In this document: piece after piece, positions 637 to 16,890 of the stretch
Numbering within the stretch: position 1 is the first letter of the stretch
How the letters are laid out: each line of letters opens with the position of its first letter
Virus record (IMG/VR): IMGVR_UViG_3300028666_000051
Coordinates: 1-44,977 of that record
Origin: a virus
Reading direction: 5' to 3' (one strand)
Length of the DNA stretch: 44,977 nucleotides
Made by a program: the position numbers and the translations under genes
Notes under the pieces: generated by a model
What the model was told of the DNA's origin: nothing
The model's input: the letters and a program-made list of their open reading frames with translations, nothing else
The model's database searches: none

Positions 637-942
637 TTATGCAGTTTTTAGTTTCATTAATTCTCTTATAGCTTCAATAGTTGCTGTTTTCATTAATTCA
701 TCAGGGGTAAATCTCAGAAGGCGCCAACCCATGCAAACAGCTGTATTATATTTTAACATGTCTTCAATAAACCCTTTGCCTCTTGTATGCCTTCCTTGTG
801 TCCATGCTCCGCCCTCAACTTCAATAGCAATCTTTAACTCTGGAATACAGTAATCAAACCTCCACTTTCTTTTTGGATGAAACTGAAATTCTTTAATTAC
901 TTTCAGTTTGAGTTCTGATTCTATGATTCTGATGAATATCAT
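637..942 (-). CDS. PD-(D/E)XK nuclease-like protein (DUF559/Vsr type)
   Basis: The 101-residue protein has the pattern RFDYCIPELKIAIEVEGG at about residues 28-45: an aspartate, then a strand with ExE, as in small DUF559/Vsr-type endonuclease-fold proteins. WRLLRFTPDEL at about 73-83 matches the following strand of that fold. Such proteins may cut or resolve DNA junctions in phage replication. Its ATG (942) overlaps the TGA of the recombinase gene, so the two are translationally coupled. The usual lysine of the ExK motif is not seen, so activity is uncertain. Confidence 0.65.
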   Translation of the reverse strand: MIFIRIIESELKLKVIKEFQFHPKRKWRFDYCIPELKIAIEVEGGAWTQGRHTRGKGFIEDMLKYNTAVCMGWRLLRFTPDELMKTATIEAIRELMKLKTA

Positions 943-1772
943 AAGCTAATGCTTTCAATAGGTGATTTTATCTTGCTTATAAGATTATCGCTTAAATGGC
1001 AATAGATCATAGTAGTTTTTACATTAGAATGACCTGCTAATTTTTGAATAAGGTTAATATCCGTTCCCTGTTCTACCATGTGGGTAAAGCAACAATGCCG
1101 AATAAGATGCGTGTAAACACGTTTTGATATTCGTGCTTTAATAGCTAATTGTTTTATAACTTGTCGTACACTGGTATCAGAATATTGAAGTTCAAATTGT
1201 CCATTCAAAACATATATCTCTGATTTGTATTCGTAATAATATTTTACCAATAATGGAATTATCAATTCAGGTAAGACAACCTGTCTGTCTTTATTTCCTT
1301 TGGCCGCAATGATATTAATAATCATCCGACTACGGTCAATGTGCGACCATTTAAGGTTTATTAATTCTGAAACCCGCAACCCACACGAATAAAGCAGGCT
1401 AAGTATTACCTTATGCTTAATGTTTGAACAGGCATTAAACATGCGTTGTATTTCGTCCTGACTAAGAACTATAGGAAGGTGTTTGGGTTGTTTTGGGTAT
1501 TCAATCTTGTCTAGTTTATTGGGTTGGCCGCCAACTTTATCGTAAAATAGCTTAATGGCACTCAAATAAGCTTTATGAGTATTAGCGCTATCTATTTTAG
1601 CAAGAAATCTCTTAATCTTTTCGGCAGATATTTCGCTTGGCTTAGTTGCTTCATTTTCGAAATACTGCAAAAACTTTCCTATGCACGAAACATAATTATC
1701 AATACTGTTTTTAGAGTACCGTTTGTATTTCATCCATTCGGAAAGCTTCTGTTGATATATTCCGATGTTCAT
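939..1772 (-). CDS. XerC/D-like tyrosine recombinase at the edge of the cassette array
   Basis: A 277-residue tyrosine recombinase. An N-terminal SAM-like core-binding domain (about 5-90) is followed by the catalytic domain with R133 (CGLRVSEL), K158 (AAKGNKDR), H222 and R225 (HLIRH), H248 (LAGHSN) and the nucleophile Y257 (TTMIYCH). The family breaks and rejoins DNA at short palindromic cores. It lacks the roughly 20-residue insertion between the lysine and HxxR patches that defines IntI integron integrases, so it is XerC-like rather than IntI. The stop overlaps the next gene (ATGA). Its start is 51 bases from the last cassette core (1824-1832) and it is transcribed in the same direction as the cassettes. 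It is distinct from the phage integrase at 15757, which sits beside attP. A role in moving cassettes is a hypothesis. Confidence 0.85.
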   Translation of the reverse strand: MNIGIYQQKLSEWMKYKRYSKNSIDNYVSCIGKFLQYFENEATKPSEISAEKIKRFLAKIDSANTHKAYLSAIKLFYDKVGGQPNKLDKIEYPKQPKHLPIVLSQDEIQRMFNACSNIKHKVILSLLYSCGLRVSELINLKWSHIDRSRMIINIIAAKGNKDRQVVLPELIIPLLVKYYYEYKSEIYVLNGQFELQYSDTSVRQVIKQLAIKARISKRVYTHLIRHCCFTHMVEQGTDINLIQKLAGHSNVKTTMIYCHLSDNLISKIKSPIESISL

Positions 1773-1836
1773 AGCATAATTGTTTTAATTATAATTAATT
1801 ATAGGCTTGTGGTACATATAATAGTTAGCGGGCAGT

Positions 1837-2316
1837 TTAAGACGCTGCCAACTCAATAGGTTTGAAAATATTCATAGGTACTGGATTTTCAAGAAACCTG
1901 TCTTTAATAATTACTTTGATTCCCTTTCCTAAATCACCGAGTAATCCGTAAACTTTCCAGTCACATTTGGGCTGCGAACATTCGTAAGGGTCTGTACTTT
2001 CTTTTCCGCACGATGGACAAACTGTTTTTCCAGAAGGAAACTTCTTTTTAAAATCGTCTAATGTTTCAAAAACAAAAACATCTTCCAACAATGGAAAATT
2101 AGCAGTTTGGTAAAAATTAACTGTATTAACATTGCGTTTTTTCTCAAAAGCGATTAATATTTCATCTTTAGAAATTCCAGTTTTTTGACTGTAGTTTTTG
2201 AGCCTTGTATCAAGTATGTTTTTTACAGATTCAGCTCTTTCATCTCCTGTTTTGCCTGCCCATGTTGAACGTGCTTGCTCGATTATTTCTTCGTAAGTTA
2301 AAATTTTAGATGCCAT
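1837..2316 (-). CDS. Cassette protein with four-cysteine zinc ribbon
   Basis: This 159-residue protein is not assigned to a named family. Residues 99-120 hold CPSCGKES and CSQPKC, a CxxC...C-x4-C arrangement suited to zinc binding, after a charged helical N-terminal half. It starts at ATG 2316, 36 bases inside its cassette core (2353-2361). Its stop lies 4 bases from the opposite core (1824-1832), and the two cores are exact 9-bp inverted copies. It is the last cassette before the recombinase gene. Function unknown; a nucleic-acid or protein-binding role is possible. Confidence 0.75.
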   Translation of the reverse strand: MASKILTYEEIIEQARSTWAGKTGDERAESVKNILDTRLKNYSQKTGISKDEILIAFEKKRNVNTVNFYQTANFPLLEDVFVFETLDDFKKKFPSGKTVCPSCGKESTDPYECSQPKCDWKVYGLLGDLGKGIKVIIKDRFLENPVPMNIFKPIELAAS

Positions 2317-2354
2317 AATTACTTATTATTAAATTGTTTATAATAAAACCGACC

Positions 2355-2483
2355 CGCTAACAATATGTATAAAAAATGGCGAGGCTACTGCGTTTAGGTT
2401 TTTGGTTACCTCCCTTTCGGCGCGCAACTCGCTCGACCATGCGAAGCTCCTTAATCGCCACTTTTCATACATTTAACGTTAGC
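2355..2483 (-). repeat. attC-like palindrome A
   Basis: CGCTAAC (2355-2361) and CGTTAGC (2477-2483) form the ends. Inside, TGTATAAAAAATGGCGA (2366-2382) pairs imperfectly with TCGCCACTTTTCATACA (2455-2471). The central part contains further partial complementarity. The length of 129 bp is within the known attC range. It separates the genes at 1837 and 2491. Confidence 0.75.
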
Positions 2484-2490
2484 AAACAGT

Positions 2491-2868
2491 TTAGAAAAAC
2501 CTATCTAAATAGTGTTGCTGGTAACATATATTTGTTTTCTTTATTTGCTTTGCTTTTAAATTGGCTTGTTCTTCTGTGCCAATAAATACCTCAGAGTAAA
2601 CTTGTTCATCTGTGTCTGATAAAATCACAATATTAAACCGTTTGCTAACAACAGGTATAGACAATGCGCCGTTCTCGTTGTTAGTGTCTGCCACCGCACG
2701 TATATGCAAACTTTCTGCCTGTAAATAAAGTTTTAGTCTATCTTCATCAATTTCAAACAATTTGAATCCTTCAAAAGATGGTAGTAATATGTAGCCTTTC
2801 CGTTCTAATTTGCTTTTATTTAAAGTGTTTAAAATTGTTTGAATGTCTTTTAATTTAATGTTTTCCAT
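2491..2868 (-). CDS. Cassette hypothetical protein, ORF crosses a cassette boundary
   Basis: A 125-residue protein with no family I recognise; it has a helical, lysine-rich start (residues 1-25) and a mixed alpha/beta remainder. The cassette core GTTTGCTAAC (2640-2649), the exact inverse of the core just after its stop (2478-2487), lies inside the coding region at about residue 74. The first 70 or so residues are therefore encoded within the palindrome of the neighbouring unit. The protein may be a chimera made by cassette insertion, or the true cassette gene may begin downstream. Start ATG at 2868. Confidence 0.6.
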   Translation of the reverse strand: MENIKLKDIQTILNTLNKSKLERKGYILLPSFEGFKLFEIDEDRLKLYLQAESLHIRAVADTNNENGALSIPVVSKRFNIVILSDTDEQVYSEVFIGTEEQANLKAKQIKKTNICYQQHYLDRFF

Positions 2869-2952
2869 CGCTCGGTTATTTAAAGTTTATCACTCGTATC
2901 AATATTGTGCGTAATTTGATGGGCGCACCTCCCATACCTGCGGCTCGTTAGC
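2643..2952 (-). repeat. attC-like palindrome B (very large loop)
   Basis: The ends are GCTAAC (2644-2649) and GTTAGC (2947-2952). Pairing arms include CAGGTAT (2652-2658) with ATACCTG (2934-2940), and TGCGCC (2665-2670) with GGCGCA (2922-2927). The loop of about 250 bases contains the start codon and N-terminal coding part of the gene at 2491-2868, which is unusual for an attC site. Confidence 0.6.
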
Positions 2953-3172
2953 AGTTATTATTCTTGCGTTTAATCGACTGCAATTCTTTTAATGAATTAA
3001 TTGTTGCTATAAATAATGGCGTTTTGATAAATTCCTTATTCATAAATTCCATATAATCTATTTGAGATTGTAAATCAGTTTCACCTGTTTTCGTGTAAAA
3101 AGCCTTAACAACTGCTAACAAGCGGTCAACAGCTATTTGCGTTTTATCGGTACTTTTAGTTTCGTTTTCCAT
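2948..3172 (-). CDS. Cassette hypothetical protein (74 aa), stop inside core
   Basis: A small helical, charged protein of unknown function, ending in a lysine/asparagine-rich tail. Its TAA stop (2948-2950) is part of the cassette core GTTAGCAGTT (2947-2956). The exact inverse of that core, AACTGCTAAC, is at 3110-3119 inside the coding sequence around residue 19. As in the gene at 2491, the first residues lie in the loop of the next palindrome. Confidence 0.6.
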   Translation of the reverse strand: MENETKSTDKTQIAVDRLLAVVKAFYTKTGETDLQSQIDYMEFMNKEFIKTPLFIATINSLKELQSIKRKNNNC

Positions 3173-3242
3173 ATTAAGTTTATTATAATTTGATATATTC
3201 GTTTTTCAAAATCGCAAACATCTGTTACCGCCCATCGTTATA
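3113..3242 (-). repeat. attC-like palindrome C
   Basis: GCTAAC (3114-3119) and GTTATA (3237-3242) mark the ends. The left arm GCGGTCAACAG (3122-3132) with ATTTGCG (3135-3141) pairs with CGCAAAC and CTGTTACCGC on the right (about 3214-3232). The loop holds the ATG of the gene at 2948-3172. Confidence 0.65.
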
Positions 3243-3249
3243 CAACATA

Positions 3250-3501
3250 CTAAAAACCGTAGTTTTTCAATTGAACTGTATTACTTAATTCTGGGTACAA
3301 CTTTACAATTTCATTAATTTCATCCATGTAGCAATTACATTTCATTCGGTTTATAATAGTATCTTGTTCGCACTCCATAGAATTGTAAAGTTGTTGTAGT
3401 TCTATTAAACGTTCCTGTGGAGTACGTTGTATAACACCAGATAAACTGAATTTTCCTGGTGCTTCTAATTTACCTTCCTGTATATTTTTACTTATACTCA
3501 T
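3250..3501 (-). CDS. Cassette hypothetical protein (83 aa)
   Basis: Unrecognised small protein with cysteines in the second half (CEQDT and MKCNC). The core GTTGTATAAC (3426-3435) lies within the coding sequence at about residues 23-26 and is the exact inverse of GTTATACAAC (3237-3246) just beyond the stop. Residues 1-22 are encoded in the loop of palindrome D, so the N-terminus may have been donated by the neighbouring unit. Confidence 0.6.
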   Translation of the reverse strand: MSISKNIQEGKLEAPGKFSLSGVIQRTPQERLIELQQLYNSMECEQDTIINRMKCNCYMDEINEIVKLYPELSNTVQLKNYGF

Positions 3502-3547
3502 TTTATTTAATTTTGTGTTAAAACTCAGTTTATCTGTAACCGTTTTG
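3432..3547 (-). repeat. attC-like palindrome D
   Basis: An 11-bp perfect stem, CAGATAAACTG (3438-3448) with CAGTTTATCTG (3526-3536), is flanked by TAAC on the left and AACCGTT on the right. The loop contains the start codon of the gene at 3250-3501. Confidence 0.65.
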
Positions 3548-3560
3548 TACGCAAGGCGGT

Positions 3561-3740
3561 TTAGTCCTTCGTATCATGTTCAGTGGGAGTAATTTTATTA
3601 TTTTTTTTGCCCACCCGCTTTAAAAATTCACGAATAAGTTGAGAAGTTTGTCCTCTCATACTTCGGTTCAATTCCTTACATGCTTTTAAATAATCCGCAT
3701 GTTCTTGGTCGGTAAGTTCTACTTTCTCAATTGTTTTCAT
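3561..3740 (-). CDS. Small cassette protein, possibly ribbon-helix-helix-like
   Basis: From ATG at 3740 the product is 59 residues. It begins MKTIEKVELTDQEHADYLK and ends RGQTSQLIREFLKRVGKKNN before an acidic tail. A short beta-like start followed by two helices and the SQLIREFLKR segment resemble ribbon-helix-helix DNA-binding proteins, but this is a weak assignment. I prefer this start to one 36 bases upstream because TAATG couples it to the gene before it. It is the third gene of a three-gene cassette. Confidence 0.6.
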   Translation of the reverse strand: MKTIEKVELTDQEHADYLKACKELNRSMRGQTSQLIREFLKRVGKKNNKITPTEHDTKD

Positions 3741-4000
3741 TAGAATGCAAAATTTATGATTAATTTTTTTACGCATTCTGAACCAACAGGGAAAAATCCT
3801 TGACTATTTGCAATGTCGCCACCTTCCCAGCTTACAATATTTCCATTTTCCAAAAGATGAACCATTTTAGAGTTAGCCCCTTCTTTTATTTTTTTACCAC
3901 ATATTACACAGTAATTACCTGTTGTAATATCCATGTTTTGCGCCTTTTCTGTTTGTAACTCAAAAAGTGGAATTTCAATTACTCTTTCAATAGTTTTCAT
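3740..4000 (-). CDS. Cassette protein with treble-clef-like CxxC (86 aa)
   Basis: The protein has YCVICGKKIKEGA at about residues 30-42 and a later cysteine (ECVKKL), resembling small zinc-binding proteins; the complete ligand set is not evident. It shares the first five residues MKTIE with the next gene, which may reflect a conserved initiation region. ATG 4000 overlaps the TGA of the upstream small gene, and its TAA overlaps the ATG of the downstream gene. Confidence 0.7.
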   Translation of the reverse strand: MKTIERVIEIPLFELQTEKAQNMDITTGNYCVICGKKIKEGANSKMVHLLENGNIVSWEGGDIANSQGFFPVGSECVKKLIINFAF

Positions 4001-4158
4001 TTCACTTTCCCTTCCATCATTTGTGTTTCAATCCATAATAAAAAAGAATCATTGCTATTGCCATTTCTAAAATTGGCTCTGTAATAATCTCTTATTACTT
4101 GTATCATAGAAGTTTCTTTTTCTTCCAGTGTTTTTACTTGTTTTTCTTCGTGTGTCAT
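3997..4158 (-). CDS. Small charged cassette protein (53 aa)
   Basis: The frame starts at ATG 4158 and ends with TGA 3997-3999, overlapping the next ATG by the ATGA arrangement. The product is rich in glutamate and lysine in its first 16 residues and has an aromatic second half. It follows a well-formed promoter (4184-4215), so it is probably the first gene of a three-gene cassette operon. No family recognised. Confidence 0.6.
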   Translation of the reverse strand: MTHEEKQVKTLEEKETSMIQVIRDYYRANFRNGNSNDSFLLWIETQMMEGKVK

Positions 4159-4183
4159 AATCTTTTTTTTAAATATTATACGT

Positions 4184-4215
4184 CAAAGTTACGTAATAGT
4201 TACGTATATAACAAA
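4184..4215 (-). promoter_or_regulatory. Bacteroidota-type promoter inside a cassette
   Basis: On the minus strand, TTG (4212-4214, within ATTTGTT) is followed after 20 bases by TAACTTTG (4184-4191), matching the Bacteroidota -33/-7 consensus TTG...TAnnTTTG. It lies about 25 bases before the ATG at 4158. The 281 bases 4159-4439 hold this promoter and palindrome E and no gene. Confidence 0.65.
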
Positions 4216-4304
4216 TATTATTTAAGAAAAAAAACACCCACCCTAAAAAAATAATAAAATTACCGTATTTCATTGCAAATTAAGTTCTTAATAATCGCCC
4301 AGAC

Positions 4305-4434
4305 GTACAACACAGCGTATAAAACAAAAGGGTATTCGTGGTATGCGTTGCGTAGTGCTTTCTATAAGCGTTTTTCTCGTGGGATAGGCTTTCTGTACCT
4401 AATCCCTTTCGATTTCATACGCTCAACGTTACCG
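4305..4434 (-). repeat. attC-like palindrome E
   Basis: The left end is GTACAAC (4305-4311) and the right end is GTTACCG (4428-4434). AGCGTAT (4314-4320) pairs with ATACGCT (4417-4423), and AAAGGG (4327-4332) pairs with CCCTTT (4404-4409). It separates the three-gene cassette from the gene at 4440. Confidence 0.75.
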
Positions 4435-4439
4435 CCCAT

Positions 4440-4613
4440 TTAAAGAAACGGTACTTTGTGGATAATCCAGTCGTTGTGAATAATCGGGAAAGGCTTCGAT
4501 TTTAACGAATGATACGGTAAAATATCAAAGCCTTTAGCCTCGCACAACTTCTTAAAATTGCCCCAAACTTCTAAAGTCGGGGCAATTACTACTATTACGT
4601 TTTGGCGGTTCAT
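4440..4613 (-). CDS. Short cassette protein (57 aa)
   Basis: ATG at 4613 follows the stop of the upstream gene by one base, which favours it over a start 33 bases further upstream inside that gene. The start MNRQNVIVVIAPTLEVWGNF suggests a beta-strand/helix pattern as in small Rossmann-like proteins, but 57 residues are too few to assign. Function unknown. Confidence 0.65.
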   Translation of the reverse strand: MNRQNVIVVIAPTLEVWGNFKKLCEAKGFDILPYHSLKSKPFPIIHNDWIIHKVPFL

Positions 4614-4614
4614 A

Positions 4615-4902
4615 TTATTTAACAATTGCGTTTGCTTTTTCTGCATATACTGTTAATCTGTCAAATAATTTACTGTTTACTTCAAATTCAGCATCTTCAT
4701 TTATTTTGCAAACGTCGCCAGCACCGTTTGCGCCGTTGCCTTTTTGGCTTAAAAATAAAGTACCGTTTTTAAAGCCTTTGCGCACATATAAGCTCTTTGT
4801 TGCAACGCCAATTAGTTTTTCACTATTAATTACTAAAGTTGCACCGTGTTGAATAGGTTCGCCAGCGTTGTTTGTCTTTTCGATGATTGTTAAAGTTGCC
4901 AT
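4615..4902 (-). CDS. Cassette protein (95 aa), beta-rich
   Basis: A mostly beta-stranded small protein with a glycine/asparagine turn (KGNGANGAGD, about residues 54-63). No family recognised. It has its own promoter (4947-4977) and a 5' leader with a possible 11-residue upstream ORF. Together with the gene at 4440 it fills one cassette whose 10-bp inverted cores lie at 4428 and 5036. Confidence 0.7.
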   Translation of the reverse strand: MATLTIIEKTNNAGEPIQHGATLVINSEKLIGVATKSLYVRKGFKNGTLFLSQKGNGANGAGDVCKINEDAEFEVNSKLFDRLTVYAEKANAIVK

Positions 4903-4906
4903 TTTC

Positions 4907-4942
4907 TTAGTTTTTAGTGAAACAGCTACGTTGTTGTTTCAT
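4907..4942 (-). other. Possible leader peptide and hairpin before the gene at 4615
   Basis: ATG at 4942 opens a frame of 11 codons (MKQQRSCFTKN) that ends 4 bases before the main ATG. Within it TGAAACA and TGTTTCA can form a 7-bp stem. This could be a translational leader; it could equally be chance. Confidence 0.3.
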
Positions 4943-4946
4943 GGTG

Positions 4947-4977
4947 TAAATATACAACGCATTTTTCTATTTTGCAA
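4947..4977 (-). promoter_or_regulatory. Cassette promoter upstream of the gene at 4615
   Basis: Minus-strand TTG (4975-4977), 20 bases, then TATATTTA (4947-4954) gives a Bacteroidota-type promoter with one mismatch in the -7 box. It lies within the cassette, so it would move with the gene. Confidence 0.5.
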
Positions 4978-5038
4978 GCTTTTTTGTAATTATTTTCAAA
5001 ATATTTCTAATTATTTTTAGGCAAATAACAAAAACGGG

Positions 5039-5133
5039 CGGTAACACGTGCTATACGTCAGTTTTGCAGTTAGTTTCGTGCTTAATTGATAGTTTCTGCA
5101 AGCAAAACCGCACGCATAGCACCACCGTTTATA
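5039..5133 (-). repeat. attC-like palindrome F
   Basis: GGTAAC (5040-5045) and GTTTATA (5127-5133) mark the ends. GTGCTAT (5048-5054) pairs with ATAGCAC (5116-5122), and GTTTTGC (5061-5067) with GCAAAAC (5102-5108). It separates the genes at 4615 and 5140. Confidence 0.75.
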
Positions 5134-5139
5134 AGCCAT

Positions 5140-5487
5140 TTAAAAAAGACTGTGATAATCTTCAATCCAAGCTCGTTTTCCACATTCTTTACATTCTATA
5201 ACTCTTATTTGCGAATCGCAATCCCATTTTTCATGCTTACACTTTTGTTGCTGTTTATATTTTTCATACATATTATCAACTCTAAGTTTTACTAATTGCT
5301 TTATTTCAGAGTCGTTAAAGTGTTTAAACTTCGGGTCAAATCTTGTTTCGCAAATAATATCAACTTCCTCTTTTAGTAAAAATGGATGCCCATACCATAA
5401 TTCGTAAAGTCGTGTTTTGATTTGCAAACAAAAACGGCTTATAACACGTGGTATAGTTAATTGGGGTTTTTCTGCGTTTTTTATCAT
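5140..5487 (-). CDS. Cassette protein with C-terminal zinc ribbon
   Basis: The 115-residue reading frame ends with KCKHEKWDC and IECKECGKRAW (about residues 82-106), a Cys/His set typical of a small zinc ribbon. ATG 5487 lies inside palindrome G, and the cassette core GGCTTATAAC (5436-5445) is within the first 20 codons. The authentic start may therefore be further downstream at a non-ATG codon, or the N-terminus is supplied by the neighbouring unit. Function unknown. Confidence 0.6.
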   Translation of the reverse strand: MIKNAEKPQLTIPRVISRFCLQIKTRLYELWYGHPFLLKEEVDIICETRFDPKFKHFNDSEIKQLVKLRVDNMYEKYKQQQKCKHEKWDCDSQIRVIECKECGKRAWIEDYHSLF

Positions 5488-5568
5488 TTGTTGTATTTAT
5501 TAAGTTTCTACTATTTTGATAGGTTGTCGGTATCTAATCCCCAACTAACCATACCACCAACGTATGTA
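5439..5568 (-). repeat. attC-like palindrome G
   Basis: The left end is TTATAAC (5439-5445) and the right end is AACGTATGTA (5559-5568). GTGGTAT (5448-5454) pairs with ATACCAC (5551-5557), and TTGGGG (5461-5466) with CCCCAA (5539-5544), with TTAA/TTAG in between. It lies between the genes at 5140 and 5605. Confidence 0.75.
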
Positions 5569-5604
5569 CAAGCACTAAATTTGCGCTTCGACCGGAACTT
5601 CTTT

Positions 5605-6108
5605 TTAAAATTGTTCAAGCAAAATAGGCCAAACATGTTTCCAAAAGTTTTTAAATTGTGGAGTAATGCTGTAACATATTTCGGGAGTACCATCTTCAAA
5701 GTCCCATATTTTTTCACAGTCACGAGCAATTGAACAAAATTCTTCTAAACATGAAGAGTTGTTTAATTGAATTAATTCATTTGCAAACTCTTTTCTTTCT
5801 TCTTCGTCATCAATGTTTTCTGCAATTCTTGTTTTTAAACAAGCAATGGTTTTGTCCAAATCAAACCATCTGTCAGCTCCAAATTTATCGGCAGCATATT
5901 CAATATTTAATCTGGAAAGAAAGTCTTTAAAATCAGTTCCACATGCACCCCAATATCTTTGGTAATCCCCATAATCAGAAGCTATCTGTATTCTTCCTGT
6001 TTTTCCTTGGCAATCTATGGTAATATCAGCCCAATACATTCCCGATGAATGCCTAATTTTATAGCATTCTACTGTGCTTTTTTCAATTGAATAAGCTCCT
6101 TGTTCCAT
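5605..6108 (-). CDS. Cassette hypothetical protein (167 aa)
   Basis: An acidic protein of unknown function, with many aromatic residues and a cluster DDEEERKEFANEL at about residues 110-122. No signal peptide or membrane segment is visible. It starts at ATG 6108. The 219-base minus-strand frame overlapping its end (5511-5729) is a shadow. Its cassette cores (5562 and 6166) match over only 7 bases (TATGTAC). Confidence 0.75.
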   Translation of the reverse strand: MEQGAYSIEKSTVECYKIRHSSGMYWADITIDCQGKTGRIQIASDYGDYQRYWGACGTDFKDFLSRLNIEYAADKFGADRWFDLDKTIACLKTRIAENIDDEEERKEFANELIQLNNSSCLEEFCSIARDCEKIWDFEDGTPEICYSITPQFKNFWKHVWPILLEQF

Positions 6109-6178
6109 TGTGTATATGTTTAATAATTAATAGTTTAAAAGGTGTGTACTAACTTTACCGTGCCAGTACATAACACGC

Positions 6179-6403
6179 CTAAATCAATCGTTGTTGCCTC
6201 ATCATCATTTCTAATTCTTCAAATGAAGTTGGTATAGGTTGCTGAACTTTTTTCTTTTGTATTGGAATCCGTTCATTATCTTCATAATAATTCCATTCCC
6301 TTGCATTTGGTCTTTTACCTGCTATTTGCGCAGCTCTTTCTTTCGACTTACATTTGAAGCTTTCTAAATGTCCGTCTTTCATTTTTATTATTACTCTTCC
6401 CAT
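6179..6403 (-). CDS. Small cassette-region protein (74 aa)
   Basis: A basic protein beginning MGRVIIKMKDGHLESFKCK, with a beta-hairpin-like start and a methionine-rich end. No family recognised. It lies in the degenerate part of the array: the space on either side is only 70 and 39 bases, and no complete attC-like palindrome is seen. A short hairpin (6140-6178) follows its stop. Confidence 0.65.
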   Translation of the reverse strand: MGRVIIKMKDGHLESFKCKSKERAAQIAGKRPNAREWNYYEDNERIPIQKKKVQQPIPTSFEELEMMMRQQRLI

Positions 6404-6442
6404 CGCTCAATAACGATTTGCTAACACACAAGCATAAAGAGC

Positions 6443-7039
6443 CTACCCACGATAGCACGGCATTAATAAAATAGTAAAGTCTCCAACTGTGAAAATAGTT
6501 CCCGAAGTTTCGTGAGTACCGTTTGAAATTTCAATCTCTTTAACGCCTGTATAAACTGCGGTTTTAATAATTAAATCCAAATAATTAAGTTTGTATTTTT
6601 TATTAAATAAAACGCAATCGTGTTCGCTCGTTAATTCAAGTTCTTTGCCTGCTACTTGTCCATTTCCACCACATTCTTTACAATCGCATTCAGAATTACA
6701 ATGGTCGCAAACATAAACTCCGTCACCATCGCAGTTATCGCAATCAATCATTTTCGGTTTAAAACAGCACTCAATTTTCATTAAGTCGTTAAAAAGAGTA
6801 TCAACGCTTACTGTTTTCTTTTCAACCGATTCATGTTTCTCAATTACTTTTTCTGCATTTGGGTATTTTTCAATAGCAGTATAGTTTTGAACACATAAAT
6901 CAGCTTTTATTTTCCCGACAATATGGGCATCTGTGGAATATAAATAACCATCCTGAAAGCTTACCTTTGTCATTGCTGGTCTTAGCATATCACTGCTTAC
7001 AAATTGTCTAATGCAATAGTCGTTTTTAATTGTTTTCAT
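6443..7039 (-). CDS. Sliding-clamp-like protein with inserted DnaJ-type zinc motifs
   Basis: The 198-residue protein begins like a piece of the beta clamp (DnaN): LRPAMTKVSFQDGYLYSTDA at about residues 19-38 matches the RPAL...ATDGH pattern, and the C-terminus (FTVGDFTILLMP) also resembles a clamp strand. In the middle (about 98-131) are CDNCDGDG, CDHC, CDCKECGGNG repeats like the DnaJ cysteine-rich domain, which bind zinc. It is too short to be a complete clamp. A decoy clamp or clamp-binding protein is possible; this is inference. Confidence 0.6.
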   Translation of the reverse strand: MKTIKNDYCIRQFVSSDMLRPAMTKVSFQDGYLYSTDAHIVGKIKADLCVQNYTAIEKYPNAEKVIEKHESVEKKTVSVDTLFNDLMKIECCFKPKMIDCDNCDGDGVYVCDHCNSECDCKECGGNGQVAGKELELTSEHDCVLFNKKYKLNYLDLIIKTAVYTGVKEIEISNGTHETSGTIFTVGDFTILLMPCYRG

Positions 7040-7071
7040 TTTGTATTTATTTGATTATTAATAAAATGCCT

Positions 7072-7150
7072 GTGTATAACACGGGCTAAAAAGCAATACT
7101 GGTTTTGTTCTTCGTTGCATGTTCAGTAAGTTGCGATGAATAAAATTAAT
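7072..7150 (-). repeat. Degenerate attC-like palindrome J
   Basis: GTGTATAAC (7072-7080) is a typical left end. GCAATACTG (7093-7101) pairs imperfectly with CAGTAAGTTGC (7124-7134). The expected right GTT core is missing; instead 16 bases AATAAAATTAATTTTT (about 7137-7153) recur inverted at 7736-7751. Confidence 0.45.
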
Positions 7151-7463
7151 TTTTCCCGCCCACTTCAGCTTTTTCAAAGCTGTTTGTAATTTGTTCTGCA
7201 AGTGAATAAACCATTCTCTTTGCTGTTAAATAAAGGCTGCCAAAATCATCAGGTTTCCTTTGTCTCATTTTTGCAAAGAATTTAACATCTTTGGTTTTAT
7301 CCAAAAATTCAGTTATCCACTTTACAGAAGTGTCGCCTTCTGGTGGTAAATTGCCATCGTGCATTACTCTGTAAAGTTCAACGCTCATCCAACTATCAAT
7401 TGATTCCCACTTATTATGGCTTTCATCAATCGAATATTTTTTAAAAAGTTGTTCTTTTGTCAT
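7146..7463 (-). CDS. Cassette hypothetical protein (105 aa)
   Basis: ATG at 7463 is preferred because it follows the upstream stop by one base; an upstream start at 7496 would lie inside the previous gene. The protein starts MTKEQLFKKYSIDESHNKWE and is largely helical, without recognisable domains. It forms a two-gene unit with the gene at 7465. Confidence 0.65.
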   Translation of the reverse strand: MTKEQLFKKYSIDESHNKWESIDSWMSVELYRVMHDGNLPPEGDTSVKWITEFLDKTKDVKFFAKMRQRKPDDFGSLYLTAKRMVYSLAEQITNSFEKAEVGGKN

Positions 7464-7464
7464 C

Positions 7465-7701
7465 TTAGTTAGTTTCAGGTGTTGTAAAATCTTCATTATT
7501 TTTCCAGCGTGCCAAAGTTTCTTCCAATGCCTTTATCATATCTTCACGTTTAGCATTTGAAATATAATTACTTATTGCTGGGCTGTTTTCGGTTGCATAA
7601 AATGGGAATACGATTAATGCAAATCCTAACCCTTTAATTTTAGAATCAATAATTTGGGCTAAATCTCTCATTTGTTGCCCACCAATTTGTTTGTCTGTCA
7701 T
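7465..7701 (-). CDS. Cassette hypothetical protein (78 aa)
   Basis: A small protein with a hydrophobic stretch GFALIVFPFYAT at about residues 26-37, flanked by helices. I recall similar short proteins with the FPF motif in Bacteroidota phages and genomes but cannot name a family. Its stop is one base before the ATG of the next gene. Confidence 0.65.
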   Translation of the reverse strand: MTDKQIGGQQMRDLAQIIDSKIKGLGFALIVFPFYATENSPAISNYISNAKREDMIKALEETLARWKNNEDFTTPETN

Positions 7702-7726
7702 ATTTTTATAGTTTTAAATTAAAAAA

Positions 7727-7811
7727 TCCCACGCTAAAAATTAATTTTATTTGTGCTTCGTATTTAGTTCAGTGCTGATTTGCCGTACTGCTCTTAGCCC
7801 CAACGTTAGTG
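7727..7811 (-). repeat. attC-like palindrome K
   Basis: The right end AACGTTAGTGG (7802-7812) with preceding TTAGCCCC pairs imperfectly with CCCACGCTAA on the left (7728-7737). An inner stem CAGTGC/GTACTG lies at 7770-7790. The left core deviates from the usual AAC. It separates the genes at 7465 and 7806. Confidence 0.5.
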
Positions 7812-8141
7812 GCAATTGCAATCACGGCCACATTTATCACAGTAATATTCATCATCATCGTCATCCTCCTCGTAAGCTGAATATTCCTTACAACTTTTAC
7901 AGGTCTTTTTTTCTTCCCATGTAAATTCACCATGTCCTTTACAAAATGGGCATCTGTGCATTGTTGGCTCATATTCCCATTCCATTTCATACTCATATTC
8001 ACCATCTCCACGGCATGAACCACATTCCTCAGACCATTTATAGGGCTTAAATTCTTTACCACATTTATCGCAAGCAACAGCCACTAACAACGGGTCAGCC
8101 GTCATAGCGGGTTCGGTGGTATTCGATATTTCTGTACTCAT
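7806..8141 (-). CDS. Cysteine-rich zinc-ribbon cassette protein
   Basis: The 111-residue protein has five CxxC-type pairs (CDKCGKEF, CGSCRGDGEY, CPFCKGHGEF, CKSC, CDKCGRDCNC) and a run of five aspartates. The CxxCxGxG-like units resemble DnaJ-type zinc motifs and probably bind two or more zinc ions. Its stop TAA lies inside the core GTTAGTGGC (7805-7813). The inverse core GCCACTAAC (8080-8088) lies in the coding sequence at about residues 18-21, so the first residues come from the loop of palindrome L. Confidence 0.7.
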   Translation of the reverse strand: MSTEISNTTEPAMTADPLLVAVACDKCGKEFKPYKWSEECGSCRGDGEYEYEMEWEYEPTMHRCPFCKGHGEFTWEEKKTCKSCKEYSAYEEDDDDDEYYCDKCGRDCNCH

Positions 8142-8215
8142 AGTTTATTTTGTTTATAATTTGATACTTACGTTCTTTGTAATCCGCTACGCACGGCTAC
8201 CCGAAGCCGTTATAA
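8082..8215 (-). repeat. attC-like palindrome L
   Basis: The ends are CACTAAC (8082-8088) and GTTATAA (8209-8215). AACGGGTCAGCCGTCATAGCGG on the left (8088 onward) matches the reverse complement of CCGCTACGCACGGCTACCCGAAGCCGTT on the right (8184-8211) with few mismatches. The loop carries the start codon of the gene at 7806. Confidence 0.7.
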
Positions 8216-8473
8216 AACATTAGGCCAACGCTCCGGTTCGTCTAATGGATGTTCGTTTAATTTGCATTTTTCAAGTTCTCTATAAAGTTTTACAACCGCT
8301 AATTTTACATCTATCGGAGCATTACCTCCACTCATTGCCACTCTTGTCCCTATGCAATGATTTAAGCCTTCATCATCTTTCCAAATTATTTGCGGATAAT
8401 AATCACCATTCCCGCCTGTAATAATTCTGAAAAATGCTGTATGTTCGTCCATGTCGTCTGTTAAAAGTGCCAT
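8210..8473 (-). CDS. Cassette hypothetical protein (87 aa)
   Basis: A small soluble protein with the segment AFFRIITGGNGDYYPQIIWK at about residues 13-32 and a helical second half. No family recognised. Stop TAA (8210-8212) is part of the core GTTATAAAAC (8209-8218), whose exact inverse GTTTTATAAC (8483-8492) lies 10 bases upstream of the ATG. It is the first cassette after the replication genes. Confidence 0.7.
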   Translation of the reverse strand: MALLTDDMDEHTAFFRIITGGNGDYYPQIIWKDDEGLNHCIGTRVAMSGGNAPIDVKLAVVKLYRELEKCKLNEHPLDEPERWPNVL

Positions 8474-8485
8474 AATACTAACGTT

Positions 8486-8616
8486 TTATAACATCGGCTC
8501 ATATTTCATAAGGGGTTCAGTGCGATGCGTAACTTTTGCCCTCGTAGGTAATTATTTGTAATTTGATACAGACGTGCTTCGATTACCCTTACGAAACATA
8601 TCCGCATCCGTTAGTG
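8486..8616 (-). repeat. attC-like palindrome M, promoter-proximal end of the array
   Basis: The left end TTATAAC (8486-8492) and right end CGTTAGTG (8609-8616) enclose the arms CATATTTCATAAGGG (8500-8514) and CCCTTACGAAACATAT (8586-8601), which pair with two or three mismatches. It is the first site downstream of the DnaC-like gene. It is the only site with no matched unit on its right, so it could be where new units enter. The 176 bases 8474-8649 hold nothing else that I can identify. Confidence 0.7.
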
Positions 8617-8649
8617 AGTAATATGCCTATGCAAGATCATCTGCAAACA

Positions 8650-9252
8650 TTAACGTTTTGATTCTCCCTCGAATTTTATAATAAAGCACATCTCACTTAA
8701 TTTATCTTCGAATGATTTATTGTACCTGATTGCTATTTCTTCCATTGACATATTGGTCGTTAAACAGGTCATTCGCTTTTTATCGTATCTTTCTCTGATA
8801 ACCTCAGCAATAGGATAGTGATCAAATACTTTCAAAGCTTCATATCCGATATCATCAATAAAAAGTATTCGAGATGTCATTATTTGCGTTAATCGCTTGT
8901 CACCATCTTCTGATCTATCACTGTAAAGCCTAGAAATATAGTCGGCTGTTACGTAATGGATGTAAATTTTATCGTATAGGATTTCGCATAATGTTTTACA
9001 AGCTTTAAGTATCGAAGATTTGCCCGTCCCAACGTCACCACGCAATAATAAACCTTTATTGAGGGTAATATCAACACTACCCACAATCCAATCAAAACAA
9101 AGGGCTATTTTTGACTTATTATTTTCATCTAATTGAAAAGTCTTTTGTGTTCTGAAAAATTCATCTTGAATCAATTTCAGAAAATGCTTTTTCCAAAGAA
9201 TAGTTTCCTCTTCCAAAATATGCCGATTGCGGAAATTGGTTTTAGTGTTCAT
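8650..9252 (-). CDS. DnaC-like helicase loader ATPase
   Basis: An AAA+ ATPase related to DnaC/IstB: Walker A GDVGTGKSS and Walker B ILFIDDIG, followed by a sensor-like TCLTTNMS. The family loads the replicative DnaB helicase onto single-stranded DNA at an origin. I chose ATG at 9252 (MNTKTNFRNRHILEEE, 200 residues), which overlaps the end of the initiator gene by 11 bases. A longer frame reaches 9342 but runs through that gene. No phage helicase gene is visible, so the host DnaB is the probable partner. Confidence 0.85.
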   Translation of the reverse strand: MNTKTNFRNRHILEEETILWKKHFLKLIQDEFFRTQKTFQLDENNKSKIALCFDWIVGSVDITLNKGLLLRGDVGTGKSSILKACKTLCEILYDKIYIHYVTADYISRLYSDRSEDGDKRLTQIMTSRILFIDDIGYEALKVFDHYPIAEVIRERYDKKRMTCLTTNMSMEEIAIRYNKSFEDKLSEMCFIIKFEGESKR

Positions 9253-9976
9253 AACGCATGGGTACTTTTGAATTTTTATCGACTTCAAATTTTCCTGTTT
9301 GTACACTTTTTTTATTGGCTCCATTTGAAAATGTTTTATCATTATTTGACCATGTTTTTAACCTTTTTGCCAGTTCCCATGTTTTTTCAAGCTCAAAGCG
9401 CATCTTTTTACCAGACTTATTAAGTTCAGACCAATAGTCATAAAATAACCTCAACATGTCTTTTGTATATTCATTTTTGTAGATAGCCACTGAGTTATAA
9501 AACTCTTTTTTTCTAATATCAATATTATTTTCCCCCTGTACCCCCTTATTACCATTACCATTACCATTACCATTACCAGTGGGGCTAAGAAGCCCCTTGC
9601 AAGCCCCTTCAATAAACTCATTAATATCCTTTATATCAAATTTATAAGAGTATAATTCAAACCGCTTTATTATACCCTGATGAGCCTTATTATTAGAATT
9701 GAGTGGTAAATTCTTTTGATGCTTCAAAAAGTTACGTATAAATAAACATTCTCCTGTTTTAGATAATATTAAGCCCCTTTCTAGCCCCTTCAAAGCCCCT
9801 TCAATTTTGGCTTTTTCTTCCTTGATTTCTACGGCGATTTTCCTTGGAATTACCTCAATGAAACCTGCGATATCGCAATTATCACATAAGTAATTAAATA
9901 ATAGCTTTTCTAAAGGTTTTAATTCAGAATACCAATTATCTTTCCATTTATCCGTATCAGTATATCGGTAAGCCAT
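9242..9976 (-). CDS. Replication initiator, DnaD/lambda O-like
   Basis: A 244-residue protein with an N-terminal winged-helix-like region (MAYRYTDTDKWKDNWYSELK onward to about 110). A linker follows with ten alternating Gly-Asn residues (about 134-143) encoded by a hexanucleotide repeat, and then a C-terminal domain of DnaD or DnaT type. It precedes the helicase loader, as lambda O precedes P. Inside the gene lie 11-bp iteron-like repeats (9591-9610 and 9772-9803), so the gene may contain its own origin. Confidence 0.75.
   Translation of the reverse strand: MAYRYTDTDKWKDNWYSELKPLEKLLFNYLCDNCDIAGFIEVIPRKIAVEIKEEKAKIEGALKGLERGLILSKTGECLFIRNFLKHQKNLPLNSNNKAHQGIIKRFELYSYKFDIKDINEFIEGACKGLLSPTGNGNGNGNGNKGVQGENNIDIRKKEFYNSVAIYKNEYTKDMLRLFYDYWSELNKSGKKMRFELEKTWELAKRLKTWSNNDKTFSNGANKKSVQTGKFEVDKNSKVPMRYEH
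9548..9577. repeat. Hexanucleotide repeat (ATTACC)5
   Basis: Five exact copies of ATTACC in the replication initiator gene encode the Gly-Asn linker. Because the unit is 6 bp, slippage would change linker length without shifting frame. Confidence 0.85.
9591..9803. repeat. Iteron-like direct repeats, candidate replication origin
   Basis: AGCCCCTT recurs at 9591, 9602, 9772, 9783 and 9794. Copies are 11 bases apart within each of two clusters, with the unit close to AGCCCCTTCAA. Helically phased repeats inside an initiator gene recall the lambda O iterons. They also encode a KGL-type protein repeat, so coding constraint is an alternative explanation. Confidence 0.55.
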
Positions 9977-14254: not shown

Positions 14255-14968
14255 ATGAATAATTTCAAGCAAAATATTGAATCTATTGCTTTTACAAAAG
14301 CATATAACGAATTGAAGTTATTGGGAAAGTTTAAGACGGATTCGGAGCTCTGCAATAAAATTGATTATAAATATAATAATATGCATCAGGTAATTACTGG
14401 AAAACGTAATATACCTAGAGAGAAATTAAACAATTTATGTGAAATATATAATCTCAATTTGAGATATTTTACACATGGTAATGTTGATATGTTTTTAAAT
14501 GAACAAAAGAAACATACTACTTCAAAAACAAAAGATATACTTCAGGCTATGCCAAGTAATATAAATGATAAAAATTCAATACCATTATTAGATACTTCGA
14601 TTGAAGCAGGAGTTATTAAAGGTTTTGTTGATGCTCAAGTAAAATCTCATTTACCTCATTATATTGTTCCAGGATTTAAAGGAGCTGATTTTTTGGCAAC
14701 TATATCGGGAGAAAGTATGATTGATAGATATTGGCCAGGAGATGTAGTTGGGTGTAAAATAATAACTAACAGTGGTTTTATTCAATGGGGTAAAACGCAT
14801 ATATTAGATACCTCACAAGGTGGTTTGATAAAAAAGATAATGCCATCAGAAAAAGAAGATTTTATAAAAGCAGTTTCATTTAATGATGCAAATTATCCAT
14901 CATTTGATGTTCCTAAAAACGAAATTAATGGAATGGCTATTGTCTTAGGAGTTGTAAGATTGGTTTGA
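14255..14968 (+). CDS. CI/LexA-type phage repressor (S24 peptidase)
   Basis: The 237-residue protein has an N-terminal helix-turn-helix region (about 20-75) and a C-terminal S24 domain with the catalytic serine in ISGESMIDRYWPGD (S154) and a lysine at K193 or K194 (GGLIKKI). An Ala-Gly pair at 118-119 is a plausible self-cleavage site. Such repressors keep the prophage silent and are inactivated by RecA after DNA damage. Operators O1 and O2 precede the gene, and a third copy lies within its coding sequence (14451-14465). Confidence 0.9.
   Translation: MNNFKQNIESIAFTKAYNELKLLGKFKTDSELCNKIDYKYNNMHQVITGKRNIPREKLNNLCEIYNLNLRYFTHGNVDMFLNEQKKHTTSKTKDILQAMPSNINDKNSIPLLDTSIEAGVIKGFVDAQVKSHLPHYIVPGFKGADFLATISGESMIDRYWPGDVVGCKIITNSGFIQWGKTHILDTSQGGLIKKIMPSEKEDFIKAVSFNDANYPSFDVPKNEINGMAIVLGVVRLV
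14451..14465. promoter_or_regulatory. Operator-like palindrome O3 inside the repressor gene
   Basis: ATCTCAA-T-TTGAGAT is a perfect 15-bp palindrome with the same half-site as O1, followed by ATATT. It encodes residues around 66-71 of the repressor. An auxiliary operator for looping or roadblock autoregulation is possible. Confidence 0.6.
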
Positions 14969-14991
14969 TTTTTTAACTTAAATATATGATT

Positions 14992-15495
14992 ATGAAAAAA
15001 ATAATGTTTTATGGGCTTATCTTATTTATCTTATCAAATTGTGATTCAACGGCACCTAAACCACCAAAACCGTTAGTAAAAGTTGGCGAAGTTTTGAAAA
15101 CACAATACTTTGATGTTACCATTAATAAAACCGCATTAAAACCAATAATTCATTTTAATGAATATTCTAATTACAAAGCAGGCGAAGGAAATATTTATCT
15201 AATAATGAATATTACTATTAAAAATACTGATACAGAAAGTAGGACAATGTTTTCTGATGGTACAATATTTATTAAGACAGTTGATAAGGAGTATAAATTC
15301 GAAACATCTGAAACAATAATAGAGGATGGTTGGGGATTTATCTTAGAAGATATAAATCCACTTGTTACCAAGACAACAAATATCGTGTTTAAGATTCCTA
15401 ATAATCTCGAAGGTGATGTATCGTTTCAACCTGGAAGATCTGAAGATGATGAAAAAATATATATTGGTAAAATTGAATTTAAGCCAAAGCAATAG
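14992..15495 (+). CDS. DUF4352-like lipoprotein, probable lysogenic conversion gene
   Basis: From ATG 14992 (MKKIMFYGLILF) the protein has a short signal peptide ending ILSNC, a lipobox-like site, then a proline/lysine linker (PKPPKPLVKVGE). The immunoglobulin-like beta domain resembles DUF4352 (NIYLIMNITIKNTDTESRTM). A start two codons upstream is possible. It lies directly after the repressor on the same strand, so it is likely expressed in the prophage state. A surface or superinfection-exclusion role is inferred from this position. Confidence 0.7.
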   Translation: MKKIMFYGLILFILSNCDSTAPKPPKPLVKVGEVLKTQYFDVTINKTALKPIIHFNEYSNYKAGEGNIYLIMNITIKNTDTESRTMFSDGTIFIKTVDKEYKFETSETIIEDGWGFILEDINPLVTKTTNIVFKIPNNLEGDVSFQPGRSEDDEKIYIGKIEFKPKQ

Positions 15496-15545
15496 TAATT
15501 AACTAAAGTCTGTATAAACATTGACTTTAATCCACTTTTTAAGTA

Positions 15546-15750
15546 GTAGCAAAAAAGCGTAGCAAAACACAAAAAATAGAATATTTTCACACATTGACTT
15601 AAATGTAATATTTTGAATAGTAGATATTTAATAAATATAAAATCTAGGATATTCGAGTCCTGTTCCGGGTACTTTAGTTGTTTAAATATCTATCTTTCAA
15701 AACGTTCCTCAACGTCAATGTGAAAACGTAACAAAAAAACGTAACACATT
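15546..15750. other. attP region with arm sites and tRNA 3'-end-like core
   Basis: The core TTCGAGTCCTGTTCCGGGTA (15652-15671, then CT) looks like the T-loop, acceptor strand and discriminator of a tRNA gene, a usual target of phage integration. It is flanked by two related repeat pairs: GTAGCAAAAAAGCGTAGCA at 15546-15564 and CGTAACAAAAAAACGTAACA at 15727-15746. These resemble integrase arm-binding sites. The integrase starts 7 bases further on. No other gene is seen in 15496-15756. Confidence 0.65.
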
Positions 15751-15756
15751 GAAAAG

Positions 15757-16890
15757 ATGGTAGAGCATACAAAACCAATTATTATTAATACTGGCCGGGT
15801 ATGGTCGGTGTTTTTCCGTGCCGTTAATCCAACAACAGGCGAAAAGAAAGCTTTTAAGTATGAAACTGGGCTTAATAATAAAAAGCTTTCAAAAGCTGAG
15901 CGAACGGCAAATGCCAAAGCTTTAAAAGATTACTTCACCAATCAACTCAAATCTAATTGGGATCCATTTACTAAAACTTACCAAAAAGAATCACTTACAC
16001 TTATTGAAAACTTATATGAAATTTTAAAGCTCAAAAAATCATTAAAGCCTAAAACGTATAGTAATTATACCGATACAGTTTCGATGTTTAAGGTTTGGCT
16101 TAAAAAAGCTGGGTACCTCAACATTTTAGCTGAACGATTCACTAATAAAATGGCCCGGGAATATTTAGATTATACTTTAGTAGAACTCAACAATTCAGGT
16201 AAAACACATAATAATCGGTTGGGCTATTTAAAGACTCTTTTTAACGACATCTATGCTCGAGATGAAGAAATATTCACCATGGTGAATCCCTTCAAAAGGA
16301 TATCAAAACAACCGGAAAGAAAAGGGCGTATTTTTGCATTTACTAAGTCTGAATTGACAATCCTCAAAAACTATCTATCAGTTCATAATAAAGACTTTTA
16401 CCACGCTTGTTGCTTTATGTATTATGCTGCTTTACGCAGACCTGACCTGAAGGCGTTACAGATAAAACATATCAATATGGACAATAAAATGATAATTGTT
16501 CATTCAGGCTCAACCAAGAATCTAAAGCAGGAAAGCATTACGATATGTAAAGAACTTGAAAGAATAATTGAAGGGATGGACCTGGAAAAATATAATCCGG
16601 AATGGTATGTTTTTGGTGATCGATTTCAAATAAGTAAAAACCCAATTAAGCGAATCAATGATTTCACTGAATATTTTAGAGAAGTGGCAAGCCTATTGAA
16701 TATTGATAAAACAAAGACCTTTTATAGTTACAAACATACTGGTTTATCAGATCTCTATATCGCCACTAAAGATATTTACCTCATCATGAAACATGCCAGG
16801 CATTCAGATGTGAAGATCACAATGAAATACCTTGAAAGTTTGGGACTATTAACTAACGACCTCATCCGAGAAGCTAATTTTAAAATGTAA
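15757..16890 (+). CDS. Phage tyrosine integrase
   Basis: A 377-residue integrase with an N-terminal arm-binding region (about 1-80), a SAM-like core-binding domain (about 80-180) and a catalytic domain. Visible catalytic positions are R227 or R228 (YAALRRPDLK), K254 (GSTKN), the YSYKHTG segment (K326, H327) in place of the usual HxxR, H349 (ARHSD) and Y358 (TMKYL). This KH variant is common in Bacteroidota integrases. It integrates the phage at attP, which is directly upstream. The gene is opposite to the lytic genes and probably expressed with the repressor side. Confidence 0.9.
   Translation: MVEHTKPIIINTGRVWSVFFRAVNPTTGEKKAFKYETGLNNKKLSKAERTANAKALKDYFTNQLKSNWDPFTKTYQKESLTLIENLYEILKLKKSLKPKTYSNYTDTVSMFKVWLKKAGYLNILAERFTNKMAREYLDYTLVELNNSGKTHNNRLGYLKTLFNDIYARDEEIFTMVNPFKRISKQPERKGRIFAFTKSELTILKNYLSVHNKDFYHACCFMYYAALRRPDLKALQIKHINMDNKMIIVHSGSTKNLKQESITICKELERIIEGMDLEKYNPEWYVFGDRFQISKNPIKRINDFTEYFREVASLLNIDKTKTFYSYKHTGLSDLYIATKDIYLIMKHARHSDVKITMKYLESLGLLTNDLIREANFKM

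Follow-up and report, generated by a model that had tools for sequence, protein, structure and literature searches.

As platforms, integrons are known chiefly from bacteria, and in those of Treponema the intI gene lies in reverse orientation. Integrons or their components have been described in 21 phages, 17 attC clusters without a neighbouring integrase (CALINs) being included, and IntI1 recombined five of the six phage attC sites tested, including one from phage P12002L (Qi et al., 2023; PMC9892861); this was the only direct prior work on phage integrons returned by our literature search. The additional domain of the integrase is described as unique to IntI and as necessary (PMC9668308). Here we describe a gene array in a 44,977-nucleotide stretch of viral DNA (the window; positions 1 to 44,977 of IMG/VR virus record IMGVR_UViG_3300028666_000051). 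On the minus strand, from 8619 to 1824, about 13 small units are found in which genes alternate with hairpins, bounded by a DnaC-like gene (9342-8650) and a tyrosine recombinase gene (1772-939). A previous reading made from the sequence alone had proposed captured, integron-like cassettes at 1824-8618; that range was correct, and the recombinase at 939-1772, which it did not mention, belongs to the system too. We consider it very probable that the array is a phage-borne integron with attC-like hairpins, an attI-like site, a dedicated recombinase and inverted cassettes.

In ten units the core that follows the hairpin (GTT plus 6-7 nt) recurs in inverted form 3' of the gene, seven of the pairs being exact across 9-10 nt and three having a defect of 1-3 nt (6174-6166/5569-5561, 5445-5436/5137-5127 and 4311-4302/3553-3542). 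The count of ten units with their own inverted core in the sequence-only reading therefore stands, and both examples that it quoted are exact: GTTATAAAAC (8209-8218) with GTTTTATAAC (8483-8492), and GTTACCGCCC (4428-4437) with GGGCGGTAAC (5036-5045). The cores read GTTA(T/G)NNGNN, off the GTTRRRY consensus as it had noted. The array is made up of tandem cassettes with half-cores that are complementary inside each cassette, as in an integron. Core/inverse-core pairs of at least 9 nt at a spacing of 150-1300 bp numbered eight in the array, whereas a set of 300 first-order Markov sequences gave 1.6 ± 1.3 and five further pieces of the window, matched in size, gave 0-2; for pairs of at least 10 nt the figures were five and 0.4 expected. 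One of the eight (8296/7489) links two different units and is probably a chance match; the remaining seven lie at the expected places, the hairpin borders. Hairpins were sought with a finder for the pattern AAC, 3-7 nt, 18-bp stem, 0-4 nt, GTT (maximum length 215 nt), which took over from a chain finder (units of up to 2.5 kb) that over-predicted, its scores often equalling those of shuffles. At a score of at least 12 it reported seven sites, every one of them inside the array, and nothing on the rest of the window's minus strand; even with the threshold lowered to 11, ten shuffled versions of a 9-kb piece yielded only 0-1 sites.

The recombinase alone, used as a query, gave six phage loci, and an alignment of these led to 238 IMG/VR stretches with relatives; the comparisons that follow use the best 80 of the 238, plus chromosomal relatives. 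The upstream DnaC-like protein as query gave no useful relative, and IntI1 matches on plasmids were partial and remote. In a tree built by a quick method, all 56 phage rows together with three contigs of metagenome-assembled genomes formed one clade (100 in the Shimodaira-Hasegawa-like approximate likelihood ratio test, SH-aLRT), separate from XerC, XerD, array-less Bacteroidota enzymes and IntI, the last represented by IntI1 and IntI2 only. Over all loci, 259 hairpin sites were found upstream of recombinases; shuffled sequence gave 14, and 870 kb of downstream DNA held 22. The recombinase clade, the attI-like motif and the arrays co-occur in dozens of phages, and most phage relatives that carry the motif also have such arrays. 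The array family is thus spread over many phages and not confined to the window phage; the host is taken to be a member of the Bacteroidota, from the relatives only. The cultured Polaribacter phage Leef_1 resembles these loci in its arrangement, its recombinase being a remote one; the authors who described it took the integrase to indicate temperate potential and did not mention an integron (PMC8776804).

Comparison of related, nearly identical phages revealed movement of whole cassettes. Between L050 and L054 a single 817-bp cassette has been inserted, and the remaining flank up to the recombinase is identical at 878 of 878 nt; both ends of the insert fall within TAACG, the neighbouring hairpins are dissimilar and the borders have nothing else in common. 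L057 and L058 carry cassettes that are 98-100% identical but permuted in their order, the borders falling within TAAC; one of these cassettes lies beside attI in one phage and internally in the other. Assembly artefact was rejected as the source of this reordering, since both orders recur in contigs from other metagenomes (L053 and L059 show one of them, L055 and L060 the other). The sequence-only reading had supposed that cassettes are perhaps still exchanged, with breakpoints at the cores in related genomes; such breakpoints were found in both phage pairs and cassette exchange is supported. Related phages thus show both insertion and permutation, as mobile cassettes should. In both pairs the hairpin travels with its downstream gene. 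Sorted by their limits, the segments shared between non-duplicate phage loci comprised four from AAC to AAC, 20 from AAC to GTT (hairpin only) and two from GTT to AAC (gene only), while a GTT-to-GTT segment was never seen and the remainder had other limits or were collinear; the idea that a hairpin is a property of its upstream gene was rejected on the absence of GTT-to-GTT segments. The exchanged unit is hairpin, core, gene and inverse core with limits within TAAC(G), the hairpin belonging to the gene downstream of it. The frequent sharing of hairpins alone and the rare sharing of genes alone shows that the two can also separate by some further process. As a separate observation, L039 (-2250..-1392 from the integrase start) and L040 (-1380..-522) carry the same gene and core at 92% identity with different hairpins; hairpin and gene are therefore separable.

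The attI-like site (1773-1826, minus strand), AAC-TATTATATGTACC..., is located between the last inverse core and the recombinase start; the sequence from the last cassette towards the recombinase reads CCCGCTAAC|TATTATATGTA. The recombinase lies 51 nt from this inverse core, and its placement is similar in the relatives. The motif was present upstream in 72 of the 78 phage relatives with enough sequence, usually 49-56 nt ahead of the recombinase start, as against four of 39 array-less chromosomal relatives; cassette junctions are located at it in L057 and L058, so that a conserved attI-like site stands beside the integrase gene, as in integrons. The proposal of captured cassettes was therefore right about integron-like cassettes in a phage but not about mere captured material, given the adjacent recombinase of a phage clade and the attI-like site.

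The recombinase itself (939-1772, minus strand; 277 aa) is XerA-like and is presumed to be the array integrase on the basis of profile matches, catalytic residues and the tree. It scored 123 bits against Pfam PF00589, 174 of 265 bits against TIGR02249 (the IntI model) and below every Xer cut-off (NF040815, 192.6 of 220 bits; XerD, 163 of 330; XerC, 154 of 335). Six catalytic residues (R133, K158, H222, R225, H248 and Y257) are invariant across 13 relatives. The TIGR02249 match is split in two and skips positions 177-238, and alignment with IntI1 and IntI2 showed that the IntI additional domain is absent; the protein is thus not an IntI-family integrase in the strict sense. The nearest solved sequences are XerA (5hxy, 138 bits), another archaeal Xer and then IntI4, and an AlphaFold model (predicted local distance difference test score 81, predicted template modelling score 0.59) agrees only broadly. 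The plus strand encodes a second tyrosine integrase (15757-16890), not far from a repressor-like gene at 14255-14968; lysogeny is therefore probably not the task of the array-linked recombinase. The repressor-like gene and second integrase (14255-16890, plus strand) suggest a temperate phage.

Strand polarity pointed towards an attC site that may act as a folded single strand (the bottom strand). At seven of the eight window sites folded on both strands, the minus strand gave the more stable fold. In the phage sites wobble pairs favoured the integrase-sense strand by 262 to 56 (133 sites against 4, p = 1.7e-34), the same strand that carries the phage array genes. In Flavobacteriia chromosomes the integrase-sense strand was also favoured (25 to 7), although the genes there are on the opposite strand; a wobble bias that stays on the integrase strand whatever the gene strand argues for folding of DNA and not of mRNA. 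The earlier expectation that the palindromes would fold better than shuffled sequence was borne out in part: energies in the window were mixed relative to shuffles, but stem pairing was strongly strand-biased in 171 sites of the relatives. AACG...TGTTA on the integrase-sense strand is the polarity of class 1 integron attC on the intI strand, and the longest open reading frame (ORF) was on the integrase strand in 158 of 164 distinct self-consistent phage units, with the start codon inside the hairpin in 70 of those 158. The attC-like sites are thus canonical relative to the recombinase and the genes are flipped, three further signs (wobble pairs, AACG...TGTTA polarity and ORF strand) being in agreement; the integron order of gene then attC, with genes pointing away from attI, is not that of the phage arrays. 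Rfam gave no matches at gathering thresholds, and in a MAFFT alignment of 55 sites the stems failed to align.

We propose that each cassette comprises an attC-like hairpin, then one or a few small genes, then a 9-10-nt inverse copy of the core that borders the hairpin. A dedicated tyrosine recombinase, encoded where the array ends, would work on the folded strand, with AA|C as its site there and G|TT opposite; on excision as a circle the two unit-specific half-cores would meet and be able to pair, and insertion would take place at the attI-like site beside the recombinase gene or at other attC sites. From the recombinase outward, the order of divergent integrase, attI and cassettes with attC of canonical polarity is that of a classical integron. 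The cassette genes are flipped, being read toward the recombinase with the hairpin 5' of the gene and often providing its start codon, and transcription would presumably come from the upstream phage operon. Insertion and reordering, unit borders, gene orientation and attI conservation are supported by comparison among the relatives; that the recombinase at 939-1772 would catalyse cassette movement, that its substrate would be single-stranded DNA and that the phage would benefit are what we infer. On this evidence the system behaves like an integron but lies outside the strict IntI definition.

Several observations weigh against this interpretation. Many shared segments consist of the hairpin alone, and two of the gene alone, which the simple model leaves unexplained. 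No close relative with movement of the window's own cassettes was found, and the borders in the window array are partly decayed. Folding energies of the window sites were only mildly better than those of dinucleotide shuffles (minus-strand z from -2.8 to +0.4), because the loops are long. Finally, the recombinase is without the additional domain that is reported to be necessary in IntI (PMC9668308).

Other explanations were weighed against the same data. Classical cassettes, each a gene with its own attC, might have been taken from a bacterial integron as an integrase-less attC cluster, the recombinase having another job. Phage CALINs are indeed known, IntI1 acted on the phage sites mentioned above (PMC9892861), and the array of Polaribacter phage P12002L has sites of the present type and no recombinase, the tested P12002L site not being equated with these. 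We nevertheless regard such a capture as very unlikely: the whole-unit exchanges place the hairpin upstream of the gene and GTT-to-GTT segments are absent, the recombinase clade occurs together with the attI motif and arrays in dozens of phages, and the second integrase of the window is available for lysogeny. The window array is also not an attC cluster without a neighbouring integrase, and an IntI profile would overlook this recombinase. Homologous recombination between similar hairpins, or a host recombinase, with the phage enzyme incidental, could draw on the 90-98% identity that some hairpins show when units from different phages are compared. It appears very unlikely, as the hairpins on either side of the 817-bp insertion are dissimilar and its borders share only TAACG, and junctions occur at an attI-like motif that is conserved along with the phage recombinase.

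We judge it extremely unlikely that no recombination takes place and that the hairpins merely terminate transcription or form RNA structures between the genes of an operon. They do sit between co-oriented small genes and could fold as RNA, but this reading leaves the unit-specific inverted cores, the permuted identical cassettes and the TAAC borders unpredicted, the integrase-sense strand keeps the wobble bias even in chromosomal arrays whose genes are read from the opposite strand, and direct reading did not show a T-run as a rule. A terminator-only role was rejected on the inverted cores, permutation, TAAC borders and wobble bias.

Recognisable cargo in the relatives consists of DNA methyltransferases and a few anti-restriction genes. 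Among 139 of their cassette proteins only 28 Pfam families were matched (E <= 0.001), a single protein possibly matching more than one family; they included N6/N4 methylases (7), C5 methylases (6), PAPS-reductase-like proteins (6) and Dam (4), with single matches to MT-A70, Mom, a TET-associated glycosyltransferase and Lar restriction-alleviation protein. PADLOC likewise identified chiefly methyltransferases. Nearly all of the window's own cassettes were without a match, one having DnaJ-type zinc ribbons; three of its cassette genes have relatives upstream of recombinases in other phages. Cassettes in L044 and L067 (-365..-63 from the integrase start) encode a piece resembling the EF-Tu GTP-binding domain (GHVDHGKTTLTA).

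All features of the window array are on the minus strand and are given here from the recombinase outward, with finder scores and folding z values where available. Unit 13 (1824-2361) has core GTTAGCGGG (2361-2353), a 159-aa gene (1837-2316) and inverse core CCCGCTAAC (1832-1824), and is preceded by an attC-like hairpin site at 2361-2480 (AAC at 2480, GTT at 2361; score 16, z -2.8). Unit 12 (2478-2649) contains core GTTAGCAAAC, the remainder of a 125-aa gene (2491-2868) whose ATG is in the hairpin loop, and inverse core GTTTGCTAAC; its long-loop attC-like hairpin (2649-2949), with arms GCAGGTATGGGAGGTGCGCC and GGCGCATTGTCTATACCTGTT, was read directly, being beyond the finder's 215-nt reach. Unit 11 (2947-3119; core GTTAGCAGTT, inverse core AACTGCTAAC) carries a 74-aa gene (2948-3172), the ATG of which (3172) is held in the loop of the site at 3119-3239 (score 13, z -2.6). 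Then follow unit 10 (3237-3435; core GTTATACAAC, 83-aa gene at 3250-3501, inverse core GTTGTATAAC) with a site at 3435-3544 (score 15, z -2.8), unit 9 (3542-4311; core GTTGTACGTC, genes of 53, 86 and 71 aa at 3561-4158, imperfect inverse core) with a site at 4311-4430 (score 14), and unit 8 (4428-5045; core GTTACCGCCC, genes of 95 and 68 aa, inverse core GGGCGGTAAC) with a site at 5045-5129 (score 14, z -1.9) that has a relative in L003 (84% over 100 nt).

Unit 7 (5127-5445) has core GTTATAAGCC, a 115-aa gene (5140-5487, ATG in the hairpin loop) and an inverse core with one extra A; its attC-like hairpin (5445-5562) has a 19-bp stem, and the AAC of the preceding inverse core is one A short. 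Unit 6 (5561-6174) has core GTTATGTAC, a 167-aa gene (5605-6108, phrog_13202) and an imperfect inverse core. Units 4-5 (6175-7080) encode 198 and 74 aa, with core GTTATACACAGG at 7080, and have degenerate borders; degeneracy was seen at about 7805-7081 and 6442-6175. An apparently interrupted attC occupies 7081-7804: its 5' arm (7804-7775) pairs with a 3' arm at about 7100-7081 across genes of 78 and 116 aa, both arms having been read directly. This split hairpin (7805-7081), with the two genes inside, has an inverted repeat around AATAAAATTAATTTTT on its flanks. Unit 2 (7805-8088) has core GTTAGTGGC, the 111-aa zinc-ribbon gene (7806-8141, ATG in the hairpin loop) and inverse core GCCACTAAC, next to a site at 8088-8211 (score 12, z -2.2). 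Unit 1 (8209-8492; core GTTATAAAAC, 87-aa gene at 8210-8473, inverse core GTTTTATAAC) is followed by the distal attC-like hairpin (8492-8619, score 12), which adjoins the DnaC-like gene (8650-9342). Outside the array, a short ACCATT repeat (9550-9580) codes for a Gly-Asn run in a 244-aa protein (9242-9976), and directly past the recombinase (258-942) a small DUF559-like protein is encoded, along with one that resembles the C-terminal part of DnaA.

Integron-like arrays were also seen in chromosomes. Zobellia uliginosa DSM 2061 (L112, 4100-9900) carries one with the same hairpins and an adjacent recombinase without the IntI domain; its cassette genes point away from the recombinase, and one resembles a reverse transcriptase from its translation. 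Similar arrays occur in L108 (Flagellimonas), L117 and L143. In L112 a near-identical GC-rich hairpin module (GGCCCGGGACTAGGCCCTGCGGATGCGC...) is present in four copies between cassettes (at 242, 3866, 5657 and 7063).

Taken together, the family suggests that many phages run their own integron, and that these were missed because the recombinase falls under the IntI profile cut-off. Our literature search, which left preprints and most subscription journals outside, returned no account of a self-contained family of phage integrons that combines a recombinase clade of its own with attI, inverted cassettes and shuffling in nature. We lean towards the view that it forms a separate integron class, widespread in Bacteroidota phages, in which an IntI-domain-less recombinase lineage and inverted cassettes serve to trade counter-defence and accessory genes. 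With this family, nature provides a test of whether attC recombination depends on the IntI additional domain; should the domain-less enzyme recombine folded attC, that domain would not be essential to integron recombination. Leef_1, as a cultured isolate (PMC8776804), opens the idea to experiment. Hairpin modules joined to different genes bear on the open question of cassette origin, and the family points to quick phage-to-phage swapping of DNA-modification and anti-restriction genes.

Compared with known systems, the phage arrays share with classical integrons (IntI, attI, attC; class 1 and sedentary chromosomal) the divergent tyrosine recombinase, the adjacent attI and the tandem cassettes, as well as attC hairpins with complementary half-cores, the AACG...TGTTA polarity on the intI strand and exchange borders at AA|C / G|TT. 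Unlike them, they are carried by phages, have genes inverted relative to attC and cores that depart from GTTRRRY, and have a recombinase without the additional domain that scores below the IntI model cut-off. The recombinase has the size and domains of XerA and of archaeal and bacterial Xer recombinases, but its clade is tied to arrays and attI and not to a chromosomal dif site, and scores below the Xer cut-offs. As in Treponema integrons, the relative orientation of intI and cassette genes is unusual; there intI is turned, whereas here the genes within cassettes are turned relative to attC (general knowledge and PMC9668308). The Flavobacteriia chromosomal arrays (Zobellia, Flagellimonas) have the same hairpin type, with the same polarity relative to a related IntI-domain-less recombinase, but their cassette genes have the classical orientation, pointing away from the integrase. 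With the phage CALINs of Qi et al. (2023; PMC9892861) the present arrays have in common attC arrays in phages and DNA methyltransferase cargo; those arrays were mostly integrase-less and were read as pieces of bacterial integrons, whereas the present system is complete, with a recombinase clade of its own, an attI and evidence of shuffling.

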